In this document: one piece after another, positions 58 to 10,745 of the stretch
How the letters are laid out: each line of letters starts with the position of its first letter
How positions within the stretch are numbered: position 1 is the first letter of the stretch
Source of the DNA: Candidatus Latescibacterota bacterium
GTDB lineage: Bacteria > JAAXHH01 > JACQVL01
Length of the DNA: 10,809 nucleotides
Assembly: GCA_016209865.1 (NCBI GenBank)
Contig: JACQVL010000087.1
Span: 1-10,809 of the forward strand
Direction of reading: 5' to 3'
Made by a program: the position numbers and the translations under genes
The notes under the pieces: model-generated
What the model was told of the DNA's origin: nothing
The model's input: the letters and a program-made list of their open reading frames with translations, nothing else
Database searches by the model: none

Positions 58-135
58 GCAGGGGAGCAAGGGAGCAGAGGAGCAGGGGTGAACAACCTTT
101 TTCCCCTCTGCCCCTCCGCTCCTCTGCTCCTCTGC
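58..135. repeat. Inverted repeat with octamer tandem arms
   Basis: The left arm (58-88) is built from about four 8-nt units of the form GGGGAGCA. The right arm (103-135) is the inverted complement (CTCCTCTG-type units), with about 26 of 31 positions matching and one 2-nt indel. The loop is 89-102. The arm ends 7 nt before the AAGGAG of the following gene, so a transcript from upstream would carry a long hairpin just before the ribosome site. Nothing else is seen in 1-57. The lack of a terminal T-run argues against a simple terminator. Confidence 0.75.
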
Positions 136-154
136 GTCATTGAAGGAGTCTCCC

Positions 155-934
155 ATGCGCATCACGACGCACATCTACGTAGTCGGCAGCGAGCAGTTTG
201 GCCTCTCACACCCGCTCGACTGCAACTGTTATCTGATCGATGGCGGCACCGACCTTGCGCTCATCGATGCCGGGCTTGGATTGGGCGTCGAGGACATCTG
301 CGCGCACGTCCGTCGCGACGGGTTCGACCCCGCCCGCATTAGCAAGGTCATCATCACCCACGCCCATCTGGGCCACTGGGGCGGCGCGCCTCATTTTCGT
401 GACATGTACGGCGCCAAGGTCTGGGTTTCCACGCTGGGTGCTGAGCGTTTACGGACGCTCAACGATCCGGGTCTGGGGATGAACCGGCGGTTCAACCGGT
501 ATCCCCAAGACTTCATTCCGCGTCCCTGCCCGGTGGACGGGGAGATTCGGGACGGTGATCGTCTGGTGATCGGCGCGATTGAACTCCAGGCCATCCATGT
601 GCAGGGCCACACCAAAGATTCCATCTGCTTTCTGATGAGCGAGGACGGCAACCGGGCGCTGTTCTCAGGCGATACCGTCTTCTACGGCGGACGGATCGGG
701 TTGCTCAACATGGAAGGGTGCGACCTCGACGACTATCGCCGGGACATTCACAAGTTAGCCGATCTCAGTATTGATATGCTCTTGCCCGGTCACGGGGTGT
801 TCGTCCTCTCGCGTGGGCAGAAGCACATCAACCGGGCGATCCGCAAACTGAGCGATTTCGTCCTGCCGGAGTCGTTCTTCGAGATGAACGAGTTCATGTG
901 GGATCGAGAGTATTTGCAGATTTTGAATCAGTGA
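155..934 (+). CDS. MBL-fold metallo-hydrolase with altered HxHxDH motif
   Basis: This is a 259-residue protein of the metallo-beta-lactamase superfamily, whose members are zinc- or iron-dependent hydrolases (thioesterases, lactonases, glyoxalase II-like enzymes). I chose ATG 155 because AAGGAG at 143-148 lies 6 nt upstream; an in-frame TTG at 140 falls before that Shine-Dalgarno. Expected landmarks appear in order: the N-terminal strand pair with NCYLID (24-29) and LIDAG (36-40), the metal motif HAHLGH (69-74), GHT with His152, SGDT with Asp173, and PGHG with His213. In the family motif HxHxDH the fifth position is Asp; here it is Gly73 (codon GGC, 371-373). The remaining metal ligands are present. 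Length is normal for a single-domain member. There is no signal peptide, so it is probably cytosolic. The substrate cannot be told from sequence. The gene converges on the DUF6526 gene, with 1 nt between the stop codons. Confidence 0.88.
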   Translation: MRITTHIYVVGSEQFGLSHPLDCNCYLIDGGTDLALIDAGLGLGVEDICAHVRRDGFDPARISKVIITHAHLGHWGGAPHFRDMYGAKVWVSTLGAERLRTLNDPGLGMNRRFNRYPQDFIPRPCPVDGEIRDGDRLVIGAIELQAIHVQGHTKDSICFLMSEDGNRALFSGDTVFYGGRIGLLNMEGCDLDDYRRDIHKLADLSIDMLLPGHGVFVLSRGQKHINRAIRKLSDFVLPESFFEMNEFMWDREYLQILNQ

Positions 935-935
935 T

Positions 936-1373
936 TCACACCCGCAGTGGATCGGGCGTCCACGATTTGATCAACTGTTTGATGTCGTCGCGTTTCGTGA
1001 TGTGCTCATCCAGGACACGACGGACGAGGTCGGGGAGTTCCGCATCCGACGCGAAGCGGAGGGCGATCAGTTGGCCGGGGGAGAGTTCATCGATCCGTCC
1101 GCGCAACGGATCGGGCAGGCAGATCGCCAGACGCTGACGCATCTCCAGACGAATGATCCGGTCTTGAAGCTTGGTTGCGTAGAGGCGGACGATCCCTGCA
1201 AGGAGGAAAAGAGCAACCGACGCGATAAAATTGACGAGCATCCCTGGCCCGGGCTCACGGATAAGCCTCACCAGGTTCGTCACCACGTAGAGGAGCAGAG
1301 CAGGCATCACGAAGAAATGGTACGGGGGATGGCGACGGCGATGGGTGGCGTACGTCTGTGTAGAGTCGCTCAT
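936..1373 (-). CDS. DUF6526 family membrane protein
   Basis: This is a 145-residue protein matching my recollection of the DUF6526 family: a basic N-terminus with HPPYHFFVMP, two adjacent transmembrane helices (about residues 19-38 and 46-65), then a cytosolic helical tail. The tail has the conserved stretches LIALRFASDAELPDLV (about 102-117) and IKSWTPDPLRV at the very end. AAGGAG (complement of 1379-1384) sits 5 nt before the ATG. Function is unknown; the family is typically a small inner-membrane protein. It is the last gene of a minus-strand run after the dehydratase small subunit, 123 nt downstream of it. That gap is filled by an inverted repeat, so co-transcription is possible but unproven. 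The family assignment is from memory of conserved motifs. Confidence 0.8.
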   Translation of the reverse strand: MSDSTQTYATHRRRHPPYHFFVMPALLLYVVTNLVRLIREPGPGMLVNFIASVALFLLAGIVRLYATKLQDRIIRLEMRQRLAICLPDPLRGRIDELSPGQLIALRFASDAELPDLVRRVLDEHITKRDDIKQLIKSWTPDPLRV

Positions 1374-1389
1374 AGTGTCTCCTTATCTC

Positions 1390-1497
1390 ATTTTAGATTT
1401 TCGATTTTGGATTTTGGATTCACGATGATTCGTCTTACTCCGCGTTTCCTCCCCTAACTGCTTCTCAATCCAAAATCTAAAATCCACAATCCAAAAT
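1390..1497. repeat. Inverted repeat with heptamer arms (GATTTTG unit)
   Basis: The left arm 1390-1420 consists of 4.5 heptamers of the form GATTTTG. The right arm 1467-1497 is its inverted copy (units such as CAAAATC), with 27 of 31 positions matching. The central 46 nt (1421-1466) has no repeat. The right arm touches the stop codon of the dehydratase small subunit (complement of 1497-1499), and the left arm ends 6 nt from the Shine-Dalgarno of the DUF6526 gene. The element is AT-rich in a GC-rich region. Confidence 0.85.
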
Positions 1498-1913
1498 CAT
1501 TTCCTCCGAAACAGTCCCTTTGCCTCGTACACCGGGATGGCTGTGCGGATGAACGCCACCGTCTCGCACGCCCCGTACAGCGTCTCCAGTTCGTCGCAGA
1601 GGGTGTCCACCTCCTGCCGGGTGGCCCGGTGCGGGCGGAGGGCGTTGTAGACGGCGAGCAACCGTTCGTTGGGGACGGTCGTCAGTTCCGCCGCGCGGCG
1701 CAGGTTGGCCGCCAGGGCGGCATAGCCGCTTGCCTCCGCGATGTCCGCCTGCCTGCGCAACGTCTCCGCCGTGATCCGCAGGTCGTCCACCCCTACCTCG
1801 CCCGCCAGCACCTTCTCTAAGGTGATCTCCTGGAACGACAGACCTGACGGCGCCCGCACCCAGTCAGGGTGCTTCTCCGCCAGGGGGTAATCCCGCGATG
1901 GATCGACGGACAT
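1497..1913 (-). CDS. pduE: B12-dependent diol/glycerol dehydratase, small subunit
   Basis: This 138-residue protein is the gamma/small subunit of adenosylcobalamin-dependent diol or glycerol dehydratase. It packs against the large subunit in the (alpha-beta-gamma)2 enzyme. Recognisable family stretches are YPLAEKHPDWV (9-19), a PSG motif, ITLEKVLAGEV, DLRITAETLRRQADIA (44-59), RAAELTTVP and YNALRPHRAT. I chose ATG 1913 because AAGGAG (complement of 1920-1925) lies 6 nt upstream; the frame is open further but without a ribosome site. The protein begins only 8 residues before the YPLAEKHP block. It therefore lacks the N-terminal extension of the Klebsiella/Salmonella microcompartment-associated form. 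It lies 54 nt downstream of the fused large/medium subunit on the same strand and is very likely co-transcribed with it. The usual following genes for reactivase subunits are absent. Confidence 0.95.
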   Translation of the reverse strand: MSVDPSRDYPLAEKHPDWVRAPSGLSFQEITLEKVLAGEVGVDDLRITAETLRRQADIAEASGYAALAANLRRAAELTTVPNERLLAVYNALRPHRATRQEVDTLCDELETLYGACETVAFIRTAIPVYEAKGLFRRK

Positions 1914-1954
1914 CGCGTTCTCCTTCCGGTCTATGGATTCCCACCTGCGCCGGC

Positions 1955-1979
1955 CACCGATCACCGATCACCGACCACC
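1955..1979. repeat. CACCGAT heptamer tandem repeat
   Basis: Three and a half heptamers (CACCGAT, CACCGAT, CACCGAC, CACC) lie across the end of the large/medium dehydratase gene. No inverted partner arm is visible nearby. The stop codon of that gene (complement of 1968-1970) and its last residues Gly-Gly-Arg are encoded within the repeat. Confidence 0.8.
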
Positions 1980-4211
1980 AAACTCCACGTCCATCTCCCG
2001 TGCGGGCGCGTCCGACCGGACGCACTCCGTCTCCTTCCGGTGCATCAGCGTCGTCTTGACGATGTACTTCAGCCGGGCCATGTTGTCGATGATCGACGGC
2101 ACCGGAACGACCGGCTTGTGCTTCGCGTACCGGGCGGCGTTCCGGCCGATCGTCCGGTACGACTCCGCCGTCAGGTTCGGGGACATCGAGAACAGCTCCA
2201 GGTTGTTGAGCGGGGCCAGGTCGTTTCGGGTGATGAGGATCGTCCCCTTCGACTGCATCCCGACGGCGATGCCCGACCCGCTCACCTGCGCGCCGTGATG
2301 GCCGATGAACCCGCAGTCCGAGGTCTGGAACACCTTCACGACGCGCGGGATCAACCCTTCCTCCTCGACCCCGGCCATCAACTCCCGGAGGATCGTCTCG
2401 TGCGGGATGCCGGACAGCGTCTCGGTGATCGTCGTGCCGAACGCCGGACCGACGGCGATGACCACCTCGCGCGGGTCGGTGCCGACCGACGCCGGGCCTT
2501 TTGCCCGGAACGTCCAGGGACGCTGCGCCGCCGCGGACGGCCGGACGACCTCGTCGGGCGGCTTCGCCTGCGGGATGTTCTTGAGCTGCTCCCACCGTGC
2601 CCCCACGACCCGGTAGCCGGTGCCCGGCCCGGCGTAGTCATTGGGGTCGTTGATCCCGCTCAGCGCATGGAACGCGTCGGTCAGGATGGCGGACGGCTGG
2701 AGATAGTCGCCTGCGATGCGTTGTTTTTGCATGTCGAGGACACGCTCTGCCACGTCTGTGAACCCACTTTGCGCTAAGACCTTGATCACATTCACGACCG
2801 TCTCCGGGCCGTGGAGGAACGCTTCGGCGGCGGCCAGGTCGGCCACCTTATCCCGGTCGGGCATGTCCTCGCTGGCGTGCCCGTACGTGGCGGCGGCCAC
2901 CTCCGCATCCGTGATCGGCGGGAAGTCCAGGCCGGCGTAGACCACCTGGATGGCGCGCGCCGCCCGGTCCCGCACCCGGATGACCTCCGCTTCCGTCACC
3001 GGGGTGATCCCCCCGTCCACCTGCATGTCCCGCTGGACGACGTTCCAGTCGTCCAAATCCTCCGCGTCGAAATCCCCCCCGCCGAACAGGTTATCTTCTT
3101 TCGGCATGGAGCTGTAACCGGAGGTGATGAAGTCGGTGCCGGGGAGGAATTGGAGCATCAGTTTCGCCGTCTTCCGGATGTCCGAATGGGACGCCATCGC
3201 GTCGTTCCCCGACGCCACCTCCAGGCCGAGCATCGTCGCCATCAGGTTCTCGGCGAGCACCCCTTTGACGCCGCCGGGCAGGGATTCCGGCAGGGCGATG
3301 CAACTGATCGACCCGTTCTGCACCCCCTGGCTGCCCGCGCCCCGGACGAGCATCAGGCACCGGGCCTCTAAGTAGAGCATCGATTTGCCCTCAGAATGGC
3401 CCATCAGCGCCTCCGAGCCAGTGCCGGAGGTGAACCGGGTCTTCACCCCGCGCGCCGCGTACGCGGCGGCTAAGAGCGACTTCGACCACGGGGTGTCGTC
3501 CCCGTCGATGAACGTCGAGTCGGTGCCATACACCGACAGCGTCTCCGCGTACGAGGTGAGGCCCTTCATCGCCAGTTGCAGGTTGATCGCTTCTTCAATC
3601 GAGCACTGCGTCAGCACCCCGCCGCGGCCGGTCTGCGAGCCGACCAGGATGGCTAAGGAGTTGAACGGGGCCGACCGGGCGACCGCCACCGTCGTCTCTT
3701 CCTCCGCGAACCCCCGGAGCGCCGCCTCGGCCGCGTCCGCCGCTAAGAGCGCCGGATGCTCCTTCCGGTTGGTCACGTGCGCCTGGTTGGCGGTCGTCTT
3801 CCGCACCCGGAGCTTCTGGACGGCCATCATCATCTCGACGACGTTGAGATGGCTGACGATGTCGACGAGCTTGGCCGGGGTCACTCCGCAGAACAGGGCG
3901 ACGAGGTCCTGGCGGGACACGCGGATGTCCACCATCATCCGGGCGAGGTCGAGGGAATCCATCCCCATCGCGCGGAACGCGACCCGCCGGTCGATGCTGT
4001 ACGCGGCGATGAACCGGTCGATCATGTCGAACTCATCCTTCGTCCGGCCGTCCAGCTCGACGATCTCGTCCCCCTCGACCCGCAGGCTCGGCGTCGGGTC
4101 GTGCGGGCTGTGCATCATGATCAGGCCCGCGTCCGGCCACTCCTGGATATAGCTGTCCCGGTTGACATCCCGCTCAGAGAGGATGGCGAAGCGTTTGGAG
4201 CGTTGAGGCAT
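1968..4211 (-). CDS. pduCD: B12-dependent diol/glycerol dehydratase, fused large and medium subunits
   Basis: This 747-residue fusion covers the large (about 1-553) and medium (about 580-737) subunits of adenosylcobalamin-dependent diol/glycerol dehydratase. The enzyme dehydrates 1,2-propanediol, glycerol or a similar diol to the aldehyde by a radical mechanism. A linker of about 27 residues rich in Ala, Pro and Arg joins the parts. Compared from memory with Klebsiella oxytoca (offset +2), the active-site residues are kept: Gln143, His145, Glu172, Glu223, Gln298, Ser303, Asp337 and Ser364. The pocket residue equivalent to Gln336 is Ala338 (context GNDAMASHSD). The medium part shows VVIAVGPAFG, GIPHETILRE, SGSGIAVGMQSKGT, LSM-type NLELF and NAARYAK. 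GGAGGT (complement of 4218-4223) precedes the ATG by 6 nt. Fusions of this type are known in actinobacteria. The fused medium part has no free N-terminus for a microcompartment-targeting peptide. I saw no B12 riboswitch upstream. Confidence 0.95.
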   Translation of the reverse strand: MPQRSKRFAILSERDVNRDSYIQEWPDAGLIMMHSPHDPTPSLRVEGDEIVELDGRTKDEFDMIDRFIAAYSIDRRVAFRAMGMDSLDLARMMVDIRVSRQDLVALFCGVTPAKLVDIVSHLNVVEMMMAVQKLRVRKTTANQAHVTNRKEHPALLAADAAEAALRGFAEEETTVAVARSAPFNSLAILVGSQTGRGGVLTQCSIEEAINLQLAMKGLTSYAETLSVYGTDSTFIDGDDTPWSKSLLAAAYAARGVKTRFTSGTGSEALMGHSEGKSMLYLEARCLMLVRGAGSQGVQNGSISCIALPESLPGGVKGVLAENLMATMLGLEVASGNDAMASHSDIRKTAKLMLQFLPGTDFITSGYSSMPKEDNLFGGGDFDAEDLDDWNVVQRDMQVDGGITPVTEAEVIRVRDRAARAIQVVYAGLDFPPITDAEVAAATYGHASEDMPDRDKVADLAAAEAFLHGPETVVNVIKVLAQSGFTDVAERVLDMQKQRIAGDYLQPSAILTDAFHALSGINDPNDYAGPGTGYRVVGARWEQLKNIPQAKPPDEVVRPSAAAQRPWTFRAKGPASVGTDPREVVIAVGPAFGTTITETLSGIPHETILRELMAGVEEEGLIPRVVKVFQTSDCGFIGHHGAQVSGSGIAVGMQSKGTILITRNDLAPLNNLELFSMSPNLTAESYRTIGRNAARYAKHKPVVPVPSIIDNMARLKYIVKTTLMHRKETECVRSDAPAREMDVEFGGR

Positions 4212-4241
4212 CGGAACACCTCCATCTATTTCCCCTCACTT

Positions 4242-4375
4242 CCCAACCCCCCCTGGGCAGTAGGCAGATGGGCAGTAGGCAGGTGGGCAGTAGGCAGTGG
4301 ATGGGGGAACGGCTTCAACAGCTTCTACTGCCCACTGCCCATTGCCCACCTGCCCGGTGGGGCCAGGGGGTTGGG
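4242..4375. repeat. Nested inverted repeat with GGGCAGT/AGGCAGT heptamers
   Basis: Outer ends are CCCAACCCCCCCTGG (4242-4256) and CCAGGGGGTTGGG (4363-4375), which are complementary apart from two extra C. Inside, the left side (4255-4299) is a run of alternating GGGCAGT and AGGCAGT heptamers. The right side (4328-4355) carries inverted units (CTGCCCA type), 22 of 28 matching without gaps. The element fills nearly the whole gap between the zinc-ribbon stop codon (4381) and the dehydratase Shine-Dalgarno (4223). It has the shape of a small miniature inverted-repeat element, but no flanking target duplication was recognised. Confidence 0.75.
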
Positions 4376-4380
4376 TGGTA

Positions 4381-4536
4381 TCATCCCGTCCATGTCCATG
4401 ACTTCCAGAACCGGAAGTGGCAAGCATCGCACTGGTAGGGGCACTGTCCCCAGCGGACGACGAGCAACAGGACGTCGTACCAGCGCAGGGACGCTTGATG
4501 GACGGGCTCAGCCTGGCATTTCGGACAGGTCCGCAT
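4381..4536 (-). CDS. Small zinc-ribbon protein (51 aa)
   Basis: This short open frame translates to 51 residues starting MRTCPKCQAE and ending HFRFWKSWTWTG. It has a CxxC pair at Cys4/Cys7 and a second cysteine cluster Cys32, Cys36, Cys39 in the context QCPYQCDACHFRFW. That is the pattern of small one-finger zinc ribbons of the form CPxC...PYxCxxCxxRFW. The middle (YDVLLLVVRWG, 20-30) is hydrophobic and could touch the membrane or form a small core. AAAGGG ends 6 nt before ATG, with GGAG further upstream. It reads in the same direction as the dehydratase genes, 169 nt upstream, and may be first in that transcript. Function is unknown. The regular cysteine spacing and the aromatic residues after the last Cys make chance coding unlikely. 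Confidence 0.65.
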   Translation of the reverse strand: MRTCPKCQAEPVHQASLRWYDVLLLVVRWGQCPYQCDACHFRFWKSWTWTG

Positions 4537-4578
4537 GGCGGGCCCTTTCTCCACGACACGTCATGCCAAATGAGGTTA

Positions 4579-4599
4579 TGTCATGACATTGTGTCATGA
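4579..4599. promoter_or_regulatory. TGTCATGACA palindrome plus half copy, possible operator
   Basis: A perfect 10-bp palindrome TGTCATGACA (4579-4588) is followed 3 nt later by TGTCATGA (4592-4599). It lies 43 nt upstream of the zinc-ribbon start on the minus strand, where a promoter would be expected. A dimeric regulator could bind here. This is an inference from symmetry and position only. Confidence 0.3.
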
Positions 4600-4633
4600 G
4601 GAGACGGGTCGGGACACCTTCCCTCATCCTTCG

Positions 4634-4661
4634 TTCCCCTCTCCGCAAGCGGAGAAGGGAA
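4634..4661. repeat. Short hairpin repeat CTCCGC-AA-GCGGAG
   Basis: Arms 4634-4646 and 4649-4661 match at 12 of 13 positions around a 2-nt centre. The flanks continue as C/T-rich left and G/A-rich right sequence. It resembles the CCCTCTCC...GGAGAGGG class of dispersed intergenic hairpins of many bacteria. It lies between divergent genes and has no T-run, so it is not a terminator for either. Confidence 0.6.
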
Positions 4662-4942
4662 GGGGAGTAACAGGGGCAGAGATGAGGGGCAAACACGGCG
4701 TTGGCACGCTATTTGTGAAAGCCTCCGTCCGGAGAACGGCTCGACGCAGGTTCCACCCTTCTGAAGAGTGTCTCACAAAAAGCGTTCACGAGCATCGAGA
4801 GCAGACTGCACTCGCCCTGCCGACCCCTTTCTTCATGCTGGTGTAACATTTGGCAAGTTCGTTCGTCTAACAGAGCGTGAATCGTACACGGTGTTGTGTC
4901 TTTTTTCTCCATCTCTTGATGTTCACTGTAAGGAGGACACGT

Positions 4943-5635
4943 ATGGAGACCGAGGCCGTATCCACCGTAACCCGGCGCGCGATGCCGATCTGGCTCGCCG
5001 TCGCCCTGACCGGTCTGCCGGTCGTCATCGATGCATCCCTCAGCCACGCCGCCTTCAACCCGTTCAAATTCGTGCTCAGGCCGTTCACGCACGACCTGTC
5101 GGGGCCGTCAGCCGCGCAGGAGCCGGCCGACACCGGGGACCTGAGGCAACAGGCGCTCATCCAGGCCATCCAGCAGCGTCCGGACGATGCCGACCTGTAT
5201 TACCGGGTCGGCCGGGTCTACGAAGCCTTGAACCGGTGGGATCAGGCCGCTAAAGCGTACCGTAACGCCGTCCGCCTGAACCCGCAATGGGCAGACGCGT
5301 ACTACCGGTTAGGGCTGGCCTACGAGCGCGTCGGGACGTTTGAGTTTCAGGGAGAGACCTACATCGACCGGAAGAAGCTCAAACAGGCGATCGCGGAGTA
5401 CCAGAAAGCGATTCGACTCGACCCGACTCATCTGGATGCTCGCTACCAGCTCAGTCTCGCCTACCAGATGAGGGGACAGTTTTTGCTCGCGGTCGCGCAG
5501 TGTCAGGCGATGCTCCAGGTCGATTCGGGTGACCAGCGTGCACGACAGCTCGTTCAGGCGCTCTACGAGGAGTATCTGGATGAGCAAGCGACGCTGGCTC
5601 GGGCGCAGACACTCACCCAGGCTCAGCGCCAGTAG
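4943..5635 (+). CDS. Secreted tetratricopeptide-repeat protein
   Basis: This 230-residue protein starts at ATG 4943, where AAGGAGG (4930-4936) lies 6 nt upstream. An upstream in-frame ATG (4877) lacks a ribosome site and would spoil the signal peptide. Residues 1-36 form a signal peptide: charged start, hydrophobic core about 15-30, then SLSHA before AFNP with likely cleavage after Ala36. A Pro/Ala-rich spacer follows. Three TPR units are visible at about 82-115, 116-162 and 163-196, with typical residues (YYRVGRVYEALNRWDQA, AIAEYQKAIRLDP). The middle unit is about 13 residues longer than the usual 34, through an insertion near 132-144 (TFEFQGETYIDRK). The tail (197-230) is helical and Gln-rich. 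The role is probably protein-protein contact in the periplasm or at the envelope; the partner is unknown. It converges on the ThuA gene. Confidence 0.85.
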   Translation: METEAVSTVTRRAMPIWLAVALTGLPVVIDASLSHAAFNPFKFVLRPFTHDLSGPSAAQEPADTGDLRQQALIQAIQQRPDDADLYYRVGRVYEALNRWDQAAKAYRNAVRLNPQWADAYYRLGLAYERVGTFEFQGETYIDRKKLKQAIAEYQKAIRLDPTHLDARYQLSLAYQMRGQFLLAVAQCQAMLQVDSGDQRARQLVQALYEEYLDEQATLARAQTLTQAQRQ

Positions 5636-5702
5636 CGATCGGCCTCCGTGCCGGATGCGCGGTGCGGCATCGTCGAGTGGCGCATGAGGGGTTTGAGCAT
5701 TT

Positions 5703-5750
5703 CCCTTTTCCCCTTTCGCCTTTTCGCCCGGCGGGGAAGGGGGAAAAGGG
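5703..5750. repeat. Inverted repeat between convergent genes
   Basis: CCCTTTTCCCC (5703-5713) is the exact complement of 5740-5750, with the GC-rich inner part CGCC/GGCG also able to pair. It lies between the ends of the TPR (+) and ThuA (-) genes, the place for a bidirectional terminator. There is no T-run on either strand after the stem, so termination is only possible, not shown. The left arm is again quasi-repetitive (TTTTCCC, CTTTCGC, CTTTTCGCC), like the other intergenic elements. Confidence 0.55.
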
Positions 5751-5772
5751 GATTGAGGCCCGGCCGGGCGTG

Positions 5773-6405
5773 TCATTCCCCCGACGGCCGTCCCGCCCAC
5801 AGCGCCCCGCTCTGGAGGAGGACGCGGAACATCTCCTGCCGGCAGGCGGCCTGGTCGTGGCCGAGGGCTAAGTAGAACACCCGCCCTTTCCCCCACCCCT
5901 TCGTCCAGGCCACGGGCACCGCGTTACCCCGGTACAGGGCGGTGCAGAGGACGTGGACGCGCGGGTCGTAATCGAGGATGTACTGCTCGTCCCGCACGAT
6001 GAACTCGGTCAGTCCCTCGGTGATCGGATGGTCGGGGTCGGCCACGCTCACCTGGTAGTCCCGGTAGCGGGGGTGAGTGACGAAAGAGCCGCCTAACATC
6101 GCCCGGTATTCCGGGCATTCCCGGAACGAGTCGGCCGCGGAGTGCACGCCCACGAACCCTTTCCCGGACGCCACCCAGTTGAGCAGTCCGTTCTTCTGCG
6201 CGTCCGCCAGCGTCCCGACCGTGTAATAGAACACCATCAGGTCGTATGGATCGAGGTGAGGCGCCACGAAGGTGTCGAGATCCTCTTCGACCGCGGTGAT
6301 CGCAAACTCCTCTCCTTCCGCCAGAGCCTCTAAGATCGCCTGGCCGTTCCCCTTGAAATCGTGGATCTGCCCGCCAGTAAAGACCAGAGTCTTGATCTTC
6401 GTCAT
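5773..6405 (-). CDS. ThuA domain-containing protein
   Basis: This 210-residue protein is a single ThuA (trehalose-utilisation) domain with a class I glutamine-amidotransferase-like flavodoxin fold. Family members are linked to sugar uptake or metabolism, and their exact reaction is unsettled. Landmarks are VFTGGQIHDF (8-17), MVFYY (57-61), GFVGVHSAAD (83-92), YRAMLGG (100-106), HPITEGL (126-132), DEQY (139-142) and GKGRVFYLALGHD (172-184). AAGGAG (complement of 6413-6418) lies 7 nt before ATG 6405; the longer frame upstream has no ribosome site. No signal peptide is present, so it is cytosolic. Genomes rich in ThuA proteins usually also encode many Gfo/Idh/MocA oxidoreductases, and one lies further along this window, though not adjacent. 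Length is normal. Confidence 0.93.
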   Translation of the reverse strand: MTKIKTLVFTGGQIHDFKGNGQAILEALAEGEEFAITAVEEDLDTFVAPHLDPYDLMVFYYTVGTLADAQKNGLLNWVASGKGFVGVHSAADSFRECPEYRAMLGGSFVTHPRYRDYQVSVADPDHPITEGLTEFIVRDEQYILDYDPRVHVLCTALYRGNAVPVAWTKGWGKGRVFYLALGHDQAACRQEMFRVLLQSGALWAGRPSGE

Positions 6406-6514
6406 AGCCCATCTCCTTCGACAACAGTCTCCATCATCCGGAATGTCTGCCGGGGTCACATAGAACCTGCCGTTGAAGGATATACCTCCCCTCAGGAAAA
6501 CGCAAGGAAAAAAC

Positions 6515-6530
6515 AGCGACGAGTGACGAG
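6515..6530. repeat. Short AGTGACG heptamer repeat
   Basis: Two heptamers (AGCGACG, AGTGACG) plus AG lie in the divergent gap between the ThuA (-) and ABC transporter (+) genes. The same heptamer forms the longer run at 10653-10680. No inverted arm is visible. The rest of the gap (6419-6592) holds only weak promoter-like words. Confidence 0.5.
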
Positions 6531-6549
6531 GAAAAATATCAGAATTTGC

Positions 6550-6577
6550 TTGCGCAAATGTGAGACGGTGTTATATA
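6550..6577 (+). promoter_or_regulatory. Candidate promoter giving a nearly leaderless ABC transporter mRNA
   Basis: TTGCGC (6550-6555) and TATATA (6572-6577) are spaced 16 nt, a plausible sigma-70 arrangement with a weak -35. Transcription would begin near 6584, about 9 nt before the ATG at 6593. This would explain why that gene, unlike its neighbours, has no Shine-Dalgarno. Confidence 0.3.
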
Positions 6578-6592
6578 CATGTATTGAGACTT

Positions 6593-8824
6593 ATGGATAC
6601 GCAGCCGATCATCCTCGCGTCGACTCCTGACGTTCCTCCCCTCATCCGGGATCGGATGAAGGCGGCCAACGTCGACGGACAGCCGGTGCTGCTGGCGGTC
6701 GAGGGCGACCTGAACGAGCACGGCCAGCTTACCCCCGTCTGGCTGATCGTCATGCCCGACCGGGTGGTGTCCGTGCCCGCTGCGCAGGCCGACCCGATCA
6801 TCGGGCCGTTCACCTTCGGGCAGACGGAGGAGTTCCGTCTCCGGGGCACGGTCGGGAGCTCCTCCCTGCAAGCCATGGTCGATGGCCTCCACATCGACCT
6901 GATCCGGTTCACCAACACCCATCGGGAACGGTTCCAGCGGGTGCTCACCCAGTTGAAGCTCCTGAAAGAGAACCAGGCGCTGCAACCGCAACCGTTGACC
7001 GACCCGGACCCGCGATTCTGCCAGACGTGCGGGCTGATCCTCCCCTCCCCCAATTCGCCCTGTCCCCGCTGCGTCAAGCAGGGGGCGATCCTGCGCCGGA
7101 CCCTCCGGATGCTGCGCGGGTCGATCCTCTGGGTGCTGGTGCTCGTCGGCCTGATGGTCGCCGGGATCGGCCTCGACCTGCTCCCGCCCTTCCTGATGCG
7201 GATCTTAGTGGACGATGTGCTGACGAGCAAGAAACACACGAACTGGCTGCTCTGGCTCGTCCTCGGCCTGGCGGGCGCCTCCCTCCTGCGCGCCGCCGTC
7301 AACATCCTCATCGGCCGGCTGTCGACGTTCATCGGGACGCGGATCACCTACGACGTCCGACGGCAACTGTTCGACAAACTCCAGCAGATGTCCGTGGATT
7401 ACTACGACCGGATGGAGGTCGGCCGGCTGATGACCCGGTGTCTATCCGACGTCGACCAGCTCCAGGGGTTCGTCAACCAGGCGGCGCAGGGCTTCCTGAT
7501 CAACATTTTGCTCATCGTGTCCATCGGTGGGATGATGTTCTCCTTGAACCCCCGACTGGCGGTGTATGTCCTCATCCCCATCCCGTTCGTCATCGGGGGG
7601 ACGGTCTTCTTCTGGAAGCGCATCTACCCGAAATACTTCAAACTGTCGGACAGCCAGTCGAAGCTGACGTCCGCCCTCAACAGCATCCTGTCGGGCATCC
7701 GGCTCGTCAAGGCGTTCGCCCAAGAGGAGCGGGAAGCCCGGCGGTTCACCCACCATAACGAGTACGCGCGTGATGCACGTCGCCGGGTGGAGATGAGCGC
7801 GGGGACGTTCTCCCCGCTGATGGCGTTCGTCTTCGGCCTGGGCGGGCTGATCATCTGGTACGTGGGCGGGCGGGATGTGCTCGGCAATAAGATTAGCTTA
7901 GGGACACTGATGATGTTCTTAGGCTACTTAGGCATGTTCTACGGGCCGCTGTCCAACCTGACGCAGCTCTCCAACTGGCTGACCTCGTTCATGACCTCCA
8001 GCCAGCGGGTGTTCGAGATCCTGGACACCGACCCAGGACTCCACGACAACCCGAAGGCCGTCAAGATGCCCGCCCTCCGAGGGGAGATCGAATTCGACCA
8101 TATCGTGTTCGGGTACGACCCGTACAACGCGGTCATCAAGGACGTCAGCTTTACGATTGAAGCCGGTCGGATGATCGGGATCGTCGGCCGGAGCGGGAGC
8201 GGGAAATCCACCCTCATCAACCTGCTCTGCCGGTTCTACGACGTGCAGGAAGGAGCGGTGCGCATCGACGGGGTGGACGTCCGGAACATCCGGCGGGAGG
8301 ATTTGCACCGGCACATCGGCCTGGTTCTCCAGGAGCCGTTCCTGTTCCGGGCGAGCGTGGCGGAGAACATCGCGTACGGCAAACCGGACGCGACGTTCGA
8401 GGAGATCATGAACGCGGCCAAAGCGGCCAACGCGCACGACTTCATCATGCGCCTGCCCGCCGGGTACGACACCCGCTTGGGCGAACGCGGGGCCGGGCTG
8501 TCCGGGGGGGAACGCCAGCGGGTGAGCATCGCCCGGGCGCTCCTGTGCAACCCGGCCATCCTCATCCTCGACGAGGCGACGTCGAGCGTCGATACGGAAT
8601 CGGAACAGCAGATCCAGGAGGCGCTCACCGTGCTGTGCAAGGGACGGACGACGATCGCCATCGCCCATCGGCTGTCCACCCTCCGGGGCGCGGACTGCAT
8701 CTACGTCATCGACAACGGCCGGTTAGCGGAATTCGGGAGCCACACGGAGTTGATGCGGCAGGAAGGCATCTACCACCGCCTCGTCCAGATTCAGACGCAA
8801 TTGGCGTCGCTGGAAACGCAGTAA
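6593..8824 (+). CDS. ABC exporter half-transporter with N-terminal sensor-like domain and zinc ribbon
   Basis: This 743-residue fused permease/ATPase belongs to the exporter (MsbA/MDR-like) type. Residues 1-130 are a soluble domain of beta-rich character (PVLLAVEGDL, VWLIVMPDRVVSV, FTFGQTEEFRLRG) reminiscent of PH-like domains. A zinc ribbon follows, CxxC-10-CxxC at Cys143, 146, 157 and 160. The six-helix transmembrane domain spans about 175-465. The ATPase has Walker A GRSGSGKST (532-540), Q-loop Gln580, signature LSGGE (636-640), Walker B ILILDE (656-661) and switch His692, so it should be active as a homodimer. The 130-residue N-domain plus ribbon is absent from ordinary members. Together with the DUF1854 gene downstream, this matches the 'cyanophycin metabolism-associated' ABC transporter family, as far as I recall. 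The substrate is unknown and no cyanophycin gene is here. I chose ATG 6593; GTG 6560 is in frame, but neither start has a clear Shine-Dalgarno. Confidence 0.9.
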   Translation: MDTQPIILASTPDVPPLIRDRMKAANVDGQPVLLAVEGDLNEHGQLTPVWLIVMPDRVVSVPAAQADPIIGPFTFGQTEEFRLRGTVGSSSLQAMVDGLHIDLIRFTNTHRERFQRVLTQLKLLKENQALQPQPLTDPDPRFCQTCGLILPSPNSPCPRCVKQGAILRRTLRMLRGSILWVLVLVGLMVAGIGLDLLPPFLMRILVDDVLTSKKHTNWLLWLVLGLAGASLLRAAVNILIGRLSTFIGTRITYDVRRQLFDKLQQMSVDYYDRMEVGRLMTRCLSDVDQLQGFVNQAAQGFLINILLIVSIGGMMFSLNPRLAVYVLIPIPFVIGGTVFFWKRIYPKYFKLSDSQSKLTSALNSILSGIRLVKAFAQEEREARRFTHHNEYARDARRRVEMSAGTFSPLMAFVFGLGGLIIWYVGGRDVLGNKISLGTLMMFLGYLGMFYGPLSNLTQLSNWLTSFMTSSQRVFEILDTDPGLHDNPKAVKMPALRGEIEFDHIVFGYDPYNAVIKDVSFTIEAGRMIGIVGRSGSGKSTLINLLCRFYDVQEGAVRIDGVDVRNIRREDLHRHIGLVLQEPFLFRASVAENIAYGKPDATFEEIMNAAKAANAHDFIMRLPAGYDTRLGERGAGLSGGERQRVSIARALLCNPAILILDEATSSVDTESEQQIQEALTVLCKGRTTIAIAHRLSTLRGADCIYVIDNGRLAEFGSHTELMRQEGIYHRLVQIQTQLASLETQ

Positions 8825-8833
8825 AGGCAGGGG

Positions 8834-8950
8834 TCAGGGGTCGGGGGTCAGGGGTCAGGAAAACCAGAAAGAGCAAAGGACAAAGTCGAAGGTTAGAAGG
8901 TCGTAAACCTGACCTGCGACCCATTTCTTTCCCTGACCCCCGACCCCTGA
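8834..8950. repeat. Perfect 20-bp inverted repeat with GGTCAGG heptamers
   Basis: The arms 8834-8853 and 8931-8950 are exact reverse complements over 20 bp and consist of heptamers of the form TCAGGGG/TCGGGGG. The left array continues for one more unit to 8859. The 77-nt centre contains a smaller stem (AGGTC 8898-8902 with GACCT 8911-8915). The element fills the gap between the ABC transporter stop and the DUF1854 gene and ends directly at that gene's AAGGA. Confidence 0.9.
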
Positions 8951-8960
8951 AAGGATTCCC

Positions 8961-10652: not shown

Positions 10653-10687
10653 AGTGACGAGTGACAAGTGACGAGTGACGAGTTAAC
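10653..10687. repeat. AGTGACG heptamer tandem repeat
   Basis: Four heptamers (AGTGACG, AGTGACA, AGTGACG, AGTGACG) and a degenerate fifth (AGTTAAC) lie in the leader of the Gfo/Idh/MocA gene, 20 nt from its start. No inverted partner is seen before the window ends. The same unit occurs at 6515-6530. Confidence 0.8.
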
Positions 10688-10715
10688 CAACATGTCTCAT
10701 TGTTTGTATTTTGTC

Positions 10716-10735
10716 ATTCCCGCGCAATCGGGAAT
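10716..10735. repeat. dRS3-like palindrome ATTCCC-N8-GGGAAT
   Basis: ATTCCC (10716-10721) and GGGAAT (10730-10735) are separated by GCGCAATC, and an extra C:G pair extends the stem. This fits the pattern ATTCCC-N8-GGGAAT of the Neisseria dRS3 repeat. Similar GTCATTCCCGC...GGGAATCC words are dispersed in many unrelated bacterial genomes, so this is probably one copy of such a family. Confidence 0.6.
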
Positions 10736-10745
10736 CCATTAGCGA

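Follow-up and report, generated by a model that had tools for sequence, protein, structure and literature searches.

Why should four gaps of one short bacterial contig each hold a tandem array of 7- or 8-nt units together with an inverted copy of that array, with a different unit in every gap? We address this question for a stretch of 10,809 nt from a Candidatus Latescibacterota bacterium (GCA_016209865.1, contig JACQVL010000087.1), hereafter the window, which is contig 26 of the 356 that make up a 3.75 Mb genome of 83% completeness. We conclude, with a probability of about 0.72, that the inverted arrays are the two ends of small mobile elements of the type represented by the intervening sequences (IVS) of rRNA, which carry a gene for an S23p protein (family PF05635, 23S_rRNA_IVP, here called IVP), and that the copies in the window are without this gene.

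Paired arrays in the window

An earlier note, made by a model from the sequence alone, had placed tandem arms with inverted partners in four gaps, and coordinates and complementarity confirm all four:

61-88, plus strand: G-rich arm of the 8-nt unit GGGGAGCA; the identical word brackets an IVP gene at locus L267
103-135, minus strand: inverted arm of the 8-nt word GGGGAGCA, directly preceding the next gene's ribosome-binding site
1390-1420, plus strand: GATTTTR arm; a gene-less GATTTTR element occurs as an insertion at locus L385
1467-1497, minus strand: inverted GATTTTR arm, extending to the minus-strand gene's stop codon
4248-4300, plus strand: RGGCAGT arm
4285-4312, minus strand: 28-nt stretch common to the element around one of the host's IVP genes (L253), with 1 mismatch
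4327-4362, minus strand: inverted RGGCAGT arm
8823-8827, no strand: AAAGG, the left-hand member of a possible 5-bp target duplication; it overlaps the TAA stop codon at 8822-8824
8828-8859, plus strand: TCRGGGG arm
8928-8949, minus strand: inverted TCRGGGG arm
8950-8954, no strand: AAAGG, right copy of the possible 5-bp target duplication

The GATTTTR arms are 87% complementary, and the TCRGGGG arms are 100% complementary over 20 nt (8834-8853 and 8931-8950). For the 8-nt word the inverted arms pair 66-88 with 113-135, and for RGGCAGT they pair 4248-4300 with 4328-4362. The element at 8828-8949 has palindromic ends, with AAAGG on either side and a stop codon overlapped. The window copies lie between protein genes, outside 23S rRNA, and have short filler between their arms. 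Because no PF05635 gene is present inside any of the four, we class them as gene-less relatives of IVS/S23p elements and not as full members.

Heptamer arrays across the host genome

Genome statistics refer to 637 kb of the host genome (G000), sampled in stretches. Intergenic tandem arrays had a period of 7 in 126 cases and of 8 in 3 cases, other periods below 14 accounting for 0-2 each; the 86 arrays of period 14 are an echo of period 7. For the first 320 kb, the lag-7 match in gaps reached a z of 15.7 over shuffles, coding DNA showed no lag-7 excess, and dinucleotide shuffles yielded 0 arrays, so the heptamer arrays exceed chance and have the intergenic 7-nt periodicity for which the earlier note had proposed a check. 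Nor are inverted arms peculiar to the window: an inverted second arm was found within the same gap for 72 of 142 arrays (7.3 expected), and a direct second copy for 7 of 142 (6.7 expected). About a dozen words were in use, every one of them variable at one or two positions (AGTGACR, GATTTTR, RGTGRTC, GGGRTTC, GAAGGAC, TCRGGGG, RGGCAGT, and others), and the suggestion that a single process lies behind many unrelated words is supported. One sequence, AGTGACGAGTGACNAGTGACGAGT, occurs 142 times genome-wide and was absent from 38 other genomes, 15 of them from the host's order.

The arrangement of the arms was strict. Among same-word pairs in one gap, 36 were convergent (forward then reverse), 0 divergent, 1 forward-forward, and 1 reverse-reverse, so that in convergent pairs the G-rich strand reads into the gap from either side. 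In the 40 gaps with both orientations, forward arms always preceded reverse ones, and the outermost arms shared a word in 34 (9.9 expected). The median distance between a stop codon and the start of an arm was 5 nt, and pairs were also present in divergent gaps. Similarity between arms of one gap did not exceed that between arms of different gaps (P = 0.37 and 0.995), and the variable position of a word had a favoured place inside the arm; for these two reasons we infer that arms are copied as whole blocks and not made on the spot. The interiors of the elements are mostly unrelated to each other, except for the RGGCAGT family, in which the loop is conserved. At L064 (186-1214), two neighbouring gaps have GATTTTR arms and interior in common, the sole clear interior duplication for this word.

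Most sampled IVP genes lie between inverted arrays

The lead to a gene came from the comparison of two Sphaerospermopsis genomes, in which one gap contained a whole PF05635 gene with (GGTAATT)n on one side and (AATTACC)n on the other. This gene was first recognised by eye, then recovered at the same place by a family search. We sampled 74 IVP loci: some came from mixed phyla, others from the Sphaerospermopsis order or the phylum to which genome G031 belongs. The density of period-7 arrays fell from 3.18 per kb in the nearest 150 nt to 0.42 per kb at 150-300 nt and 0.04-0.26 per kb farther from the gene. An inverted pair of 7- or 8-nt arrays lay within 150 nt of 56 of the 73 IVP genes with both flanks; the G-rich arm was upstream of 52 genes and downstream of only 2. 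As a control, 3-16% of all genes in array-rich genomes were bracketed (0-15% of genes of 80-200 aa), with balanced polarity, and PIN genes in the phylum of G031 were bracketed in 0 of 12 cases. The bracketing words vary between IVP genes of one genome, as seen in G031. On our reading, the full element consists of a G-rich 7/8-nt array, one PF05635 gene (encoding S23p, a four-helix bundle), and an inverted C-rich array, together about 430-600 nt.

The host genome itself has PF05635 at three loci outside the window copies, two of them with arm pairs. At one of these (G000:C104) the IVP gene lies between GGCAGT arms, and the right-hand side carries CCGTTCCCCCGTCCACTGCCTACTGCCC, which recurs exactly in one gene-less copy and with 1-3 mismatches in five more, one of which is the window's 4285-4312. 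It was the PF05635 gene, located between such arms elsewhere, that the earlier account lacked.

Several further observations concern IVP genes. At L355 and L356 the start codon directly follows the left arm, with no clear ribosome-binding site, and the stop codon apparently lies in the right arm. On cyanobacterial plasmids, IVP genes are found inside operons of clustered regularly interspaced short palindromic repeats (CRISPR) systems (L358, L359): the one in Picosynechococcus PCC 7003 separates cas10 from cmr3, and the one in Anabaena sp. 90 separates cas6 from cas4. One genome (G023; L260, L268) has 19 partial IVP matches, many as divergent pairs a few hundred bases apart; these are without the usual arms and are perhaps another kind of element. 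Other genes between arms were considered as cargo and rejected, since by eye they look like core genes lying by chance between two elements.

Filled and empty sites

Cyanobacterial plasmids allow the sequence before insertion to be read. Site 1, in an operon for a type IV secretion system, is empty in Aulosira, N. linckia, and Fremyella (AAAAA-GTAAT-TAACAAAT) and filled in Trichormus and Scytonema (AAAAA-GTAAT-[AAATCAGAATTCAG...IVP...GTTCTTCTTT]-GTAAT-TAACAAAT); the 5-bp duplication GTAAT is exact and contains the stop codon of the preceding gene. Site 4, in a Nostoc operon, reads GG-TTCTA-GGTTATG when empty and GG-TTCTA-[AATCAGGAGTCAG...IVP...CTTCTGGA]-TTCTA-GTTATG when filled, the stop codon being restored by the first base of the element. 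Site 5 has a 5-bp duplication with one mismatch. Plasmid sites 2, 3, 6, and 7 were not clean and were discarded as empty-site evidence.

Elements without the gene were also caught as insertions. Aulosira plasmid 1 has a GATTTTR element where its relatives are empty, with an imperfect duplication of 4-7 bp; for a TCAGAAT element, flanked by ATGAA/ATCAA, an empty site is likewise available; and a third element interrupts the IVP gene of pNPM1, with no clear duplication. Genome G040 has arms only at the position of an IVP element of G039. At plasmid sites, then, gene and arms enter together, and gene-less arm pairs insert too. The length of the target duplication is 5 bp at two plasmid sites, with a few imperfect ones and no general signal. 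A gene-cassette model, with arms tied to a gene and not to a gap, was rejected, as sharing of words across genes (5 of 13; 2.2 expected) was weaker than within gaps.

Distribution among genomes

In the host's order, PF05635 was found three times in G000, three times in G013, and twice in G011, the other 13 genomes having none. The same three genomes contained 27.6, 5.0, and 1.2 period-7 arrays per 100 kb, respectively; no array was found in 283 kb of eight others sampled from the order, which also have no IVP gene, seven of these eight belonging to one genus and so providing few independent cases. The arrays of G013 (97% complete) have period 7 and other words. Among cyanobacteria, GATTTTR arrays were present in 18 of 43 genomes with IVP and in 2 of 17 without (P = 0.034). 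Inverted GATTTTR pairs occurred, among the matches listed and according to contig labels, in Acidobacteria, Chloroflexi, cyanobacteria, Planctomycetota, Omnitrophota, Bacteroidetes, Nitrospira, and Calditrichaeota, and period 7 also dominated at the listed loci of other phyla, alongside many other words. The class is both real and general; the most plausible reading is that its arrays form the ends of IVS/S23p-type elements, the host's copies being mostly gene-less.

Interpretation and alternatives

Several results weigh against the assignment to IVS/S23p elements. About a quarter of IVP genes have no arm pair, G040 lacks an IVP gene despite its numerous arrays, and only three IVP genes were found in the host genome for about a dozen words. 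Counts of IVP genes and arrays across related genomes are not independent. No general target duplication was found in 48 chromosomal IVP elements, and of the host's own pairs 2 of 35 have one (0.6 expected) and most do not, so the AAAGG copies around 8828-8949 are no more than suggestive of a target duplication. To our knowledge, PF05635 has no catalytic activity.

The earlier note had offered slippage plus local inversion as one possible origin. Replication slippage in steps of 7 nt, a polymerase footprint, followed by local inverted copying would make arms with no mobile element, and it draws support from the over-representation of heptamers in many bacteria, for which such a footprint has been proposed (cited in PMC4692102), from unit numbers that differ between orthologous gaps, and from words held in common by 12 of 28 adjacent gaps (5.2 expected). 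As the sole origin of the arms it is nevertheless unlikely: arms that share a gap resemble each other no more closely than arms from separate gaps do, polarity is strictly convergent (36:0), whole convergent units have been inserted into empty sites, and the 283 kb sampled from eight same-order genomes contain no arrays. Slippage is likely to act as a secondary process. That IVP genes are passengers which landed in pre-existing arm pairs of other origin would fit the gene-less arms of G040 at the place of the G039 element; we consider it improbable, given that the empty version of two plasmid sites has neither arms nor gene, that the duplicated bases lie outside the arms, and that IVP genes of one genome carry different words.

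Selection for RNA hairpins, such as terminators or mRNA processing sites, would account for the strong predicted folds of the window's array gaps (z of -3.7 to -6.5 against shuffles), and RNase III does cut IVS out of rRNA (PMC4990558). In the host genome, however, variable positions of paired arms do not co-vary, and pairs are present in divergent gaps too, which makes this explanation very unlikely. We give almost no credence to the two remaining enzymatic schemes. Repetitive extragenic palindromic (REP) sequences and their paired form (REPIN), mobilised by a Y1 transposase such as a RAYT, look similar: they too are scattered through gaps as single arms and as pairs that are always head-to-head. 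RNA-templated addition of heptamers to broken ends, by a reverse transcriptase resembling telomerase or DRT10, would suit a G-rich strand directed away from genes, and DRT10 does produce tandem repeats off a non-coding RNA (PMC12632851). Family searches found no match to Y1_Tnp or RVT_1 in the host genome (83% complete) or in array-bearing G013, so that the RAYT/IS200 transposase suggested earlier is not supported, and the favoured place of the variable position, implying arms copied whole, also speaks against synthesis by a reverse transcriptase.

If the arrays are ends of IVS/S23p elements, these would insert into short gaps within operons, close to a stop codon or at it, duplicating about 5 bp. 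The moving agent would recognise the ends by their pairing or periodicity and not by a fixed sequence, so that the word could drift, and one-unit slippage together with exchange between copies may keep each word family alike. Our guess is that the IVP protein drives movement in trans. A more far-reaching and tentative proposal, which we hold to be possible and rather doubtful, is that PF05635 proteins drive transposition without a known transposase by recognising hairpin or 7-nt periodic ends, the heptamers of many phyla and the rRNA IVS being its traces. If the link between gene and arrays holds, heptamer repeats and the mobility of rRNA intervening sequences, hitherto separate puzzles, would be the ends and cargo of one widespread small element; the intergenic position, convergence, and changing words of the arrays would be explained, though not the 7-nt unit, and PF05635, a family of unknown function, would gain a testable job.

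Relation to known repeats and elements

Cyanobacterial short tandemly repeated repetitive (STRR) sequences, correctly named as relatives in the earlier note, are likewise 7-nt tandem arrays in gaps with several words; they are usually described as direct arrays. REPIN/RAYT systems and pairs of a miniature inverted-repeat transposable element (MITE) with an insertion sequence (IS) resemble the elements studied here in combining a gene-bearing element with many gene-less copies that share its ends, and REPINs also in being head-to-head pairs of a short dispersed repeat. They differ in that no transposase was found here and that the ends are tandem arrays with variable words; the constant terminal inverted repeats of a MITE derived from a DDE transposon are absent, words differing between families.

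The closest gene-bearing parallel is the rRNA IVS with an S23p/IVP gene of Leptospira and Coxiella, which has a PF05635 gene, a length of about 430 nt, and inverted ends forming a stem. Elements of the window type, by contrast, lie between protein genes, are very numerous, mostly gene-less, and use many words; their stem is a predicted one. In Coxiella, tandem heptamers of the word GACAGAT precede the S23p gene of the 23S rRNA IVS; the same paper attributes to Ralph and McClelland 1993 the view that an IVS was once a mobile element with an open reading frame that served mobility (PMC4990558). The structure of the Xanthomonas campestris S23p/IVP protein has been solved (PDB 2gsc, XCC0516; PMC4990558).

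Heptamers are over-represented in bacteria, and convergent GGGAATC pairs were described in Xanthomonas with no mobile element implied (Rehm 2015, PMC4692102). These pairs and those of GGGGA(C/T)T in Nostoc are similar to ours in being heptameric, convergent (70-75 pairs), and near the preceding gene, and Xanthomonas has an S23p/IVP protein; they differ in having one word each, with no gene or mobile element linked, and were studied for a G-quadruplex role (PMC4692102). The TAACTGA repeats of Beggiatoaceae are also intergenic heptamers found in distant phyla, with horizontal transfer suspected and no mechanism given, and they differ in being direct, adjoining start codons, and consisting of a single word (PMC4679880). 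No paper that connects PF05635 with flanking heptamer arrays in general emerged from targeted searches of the open-access literature; convergent heptamers in Xanthomonas and the heptamers of the Coxiella IVS have been published separately.

Further features of the window

Three further gaps had been noted as single-armed, and two of them hold such arrays; the third is a pyrimidine-first hairpin and may be a different kind of thing:

1955-1979, minus strand: single array of the RGTGRTC family (CACCGAT)
5698-5755, no strand: pyrimidine-first hairpin with 7/8-nt spacing, of doubtful class membership
10653-10683, plus strand: single AGTGACR arm

A second dispersed palindrome, TGTCATTCCCGCG...CGGGAATCCA, occurs at about 10712-10738 of the window and in many of the host's own gaps, often between heptamer arms; it may be comparable to dRS3, a repeat known from Neisseria. 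L030, L035, and L038 carry a third dispersed repeat, ATCCGTAGGGGCGATCCTTGTGATCGCCCGCATCGGGGCGAATACAAGATTCGCCCCTAC. On the minus strand of the window, 1968-4211 encodes the large and medium subunits of a diol/glycerol dehydratase fused in one 747-aa frame, with the small subunit adjoining.
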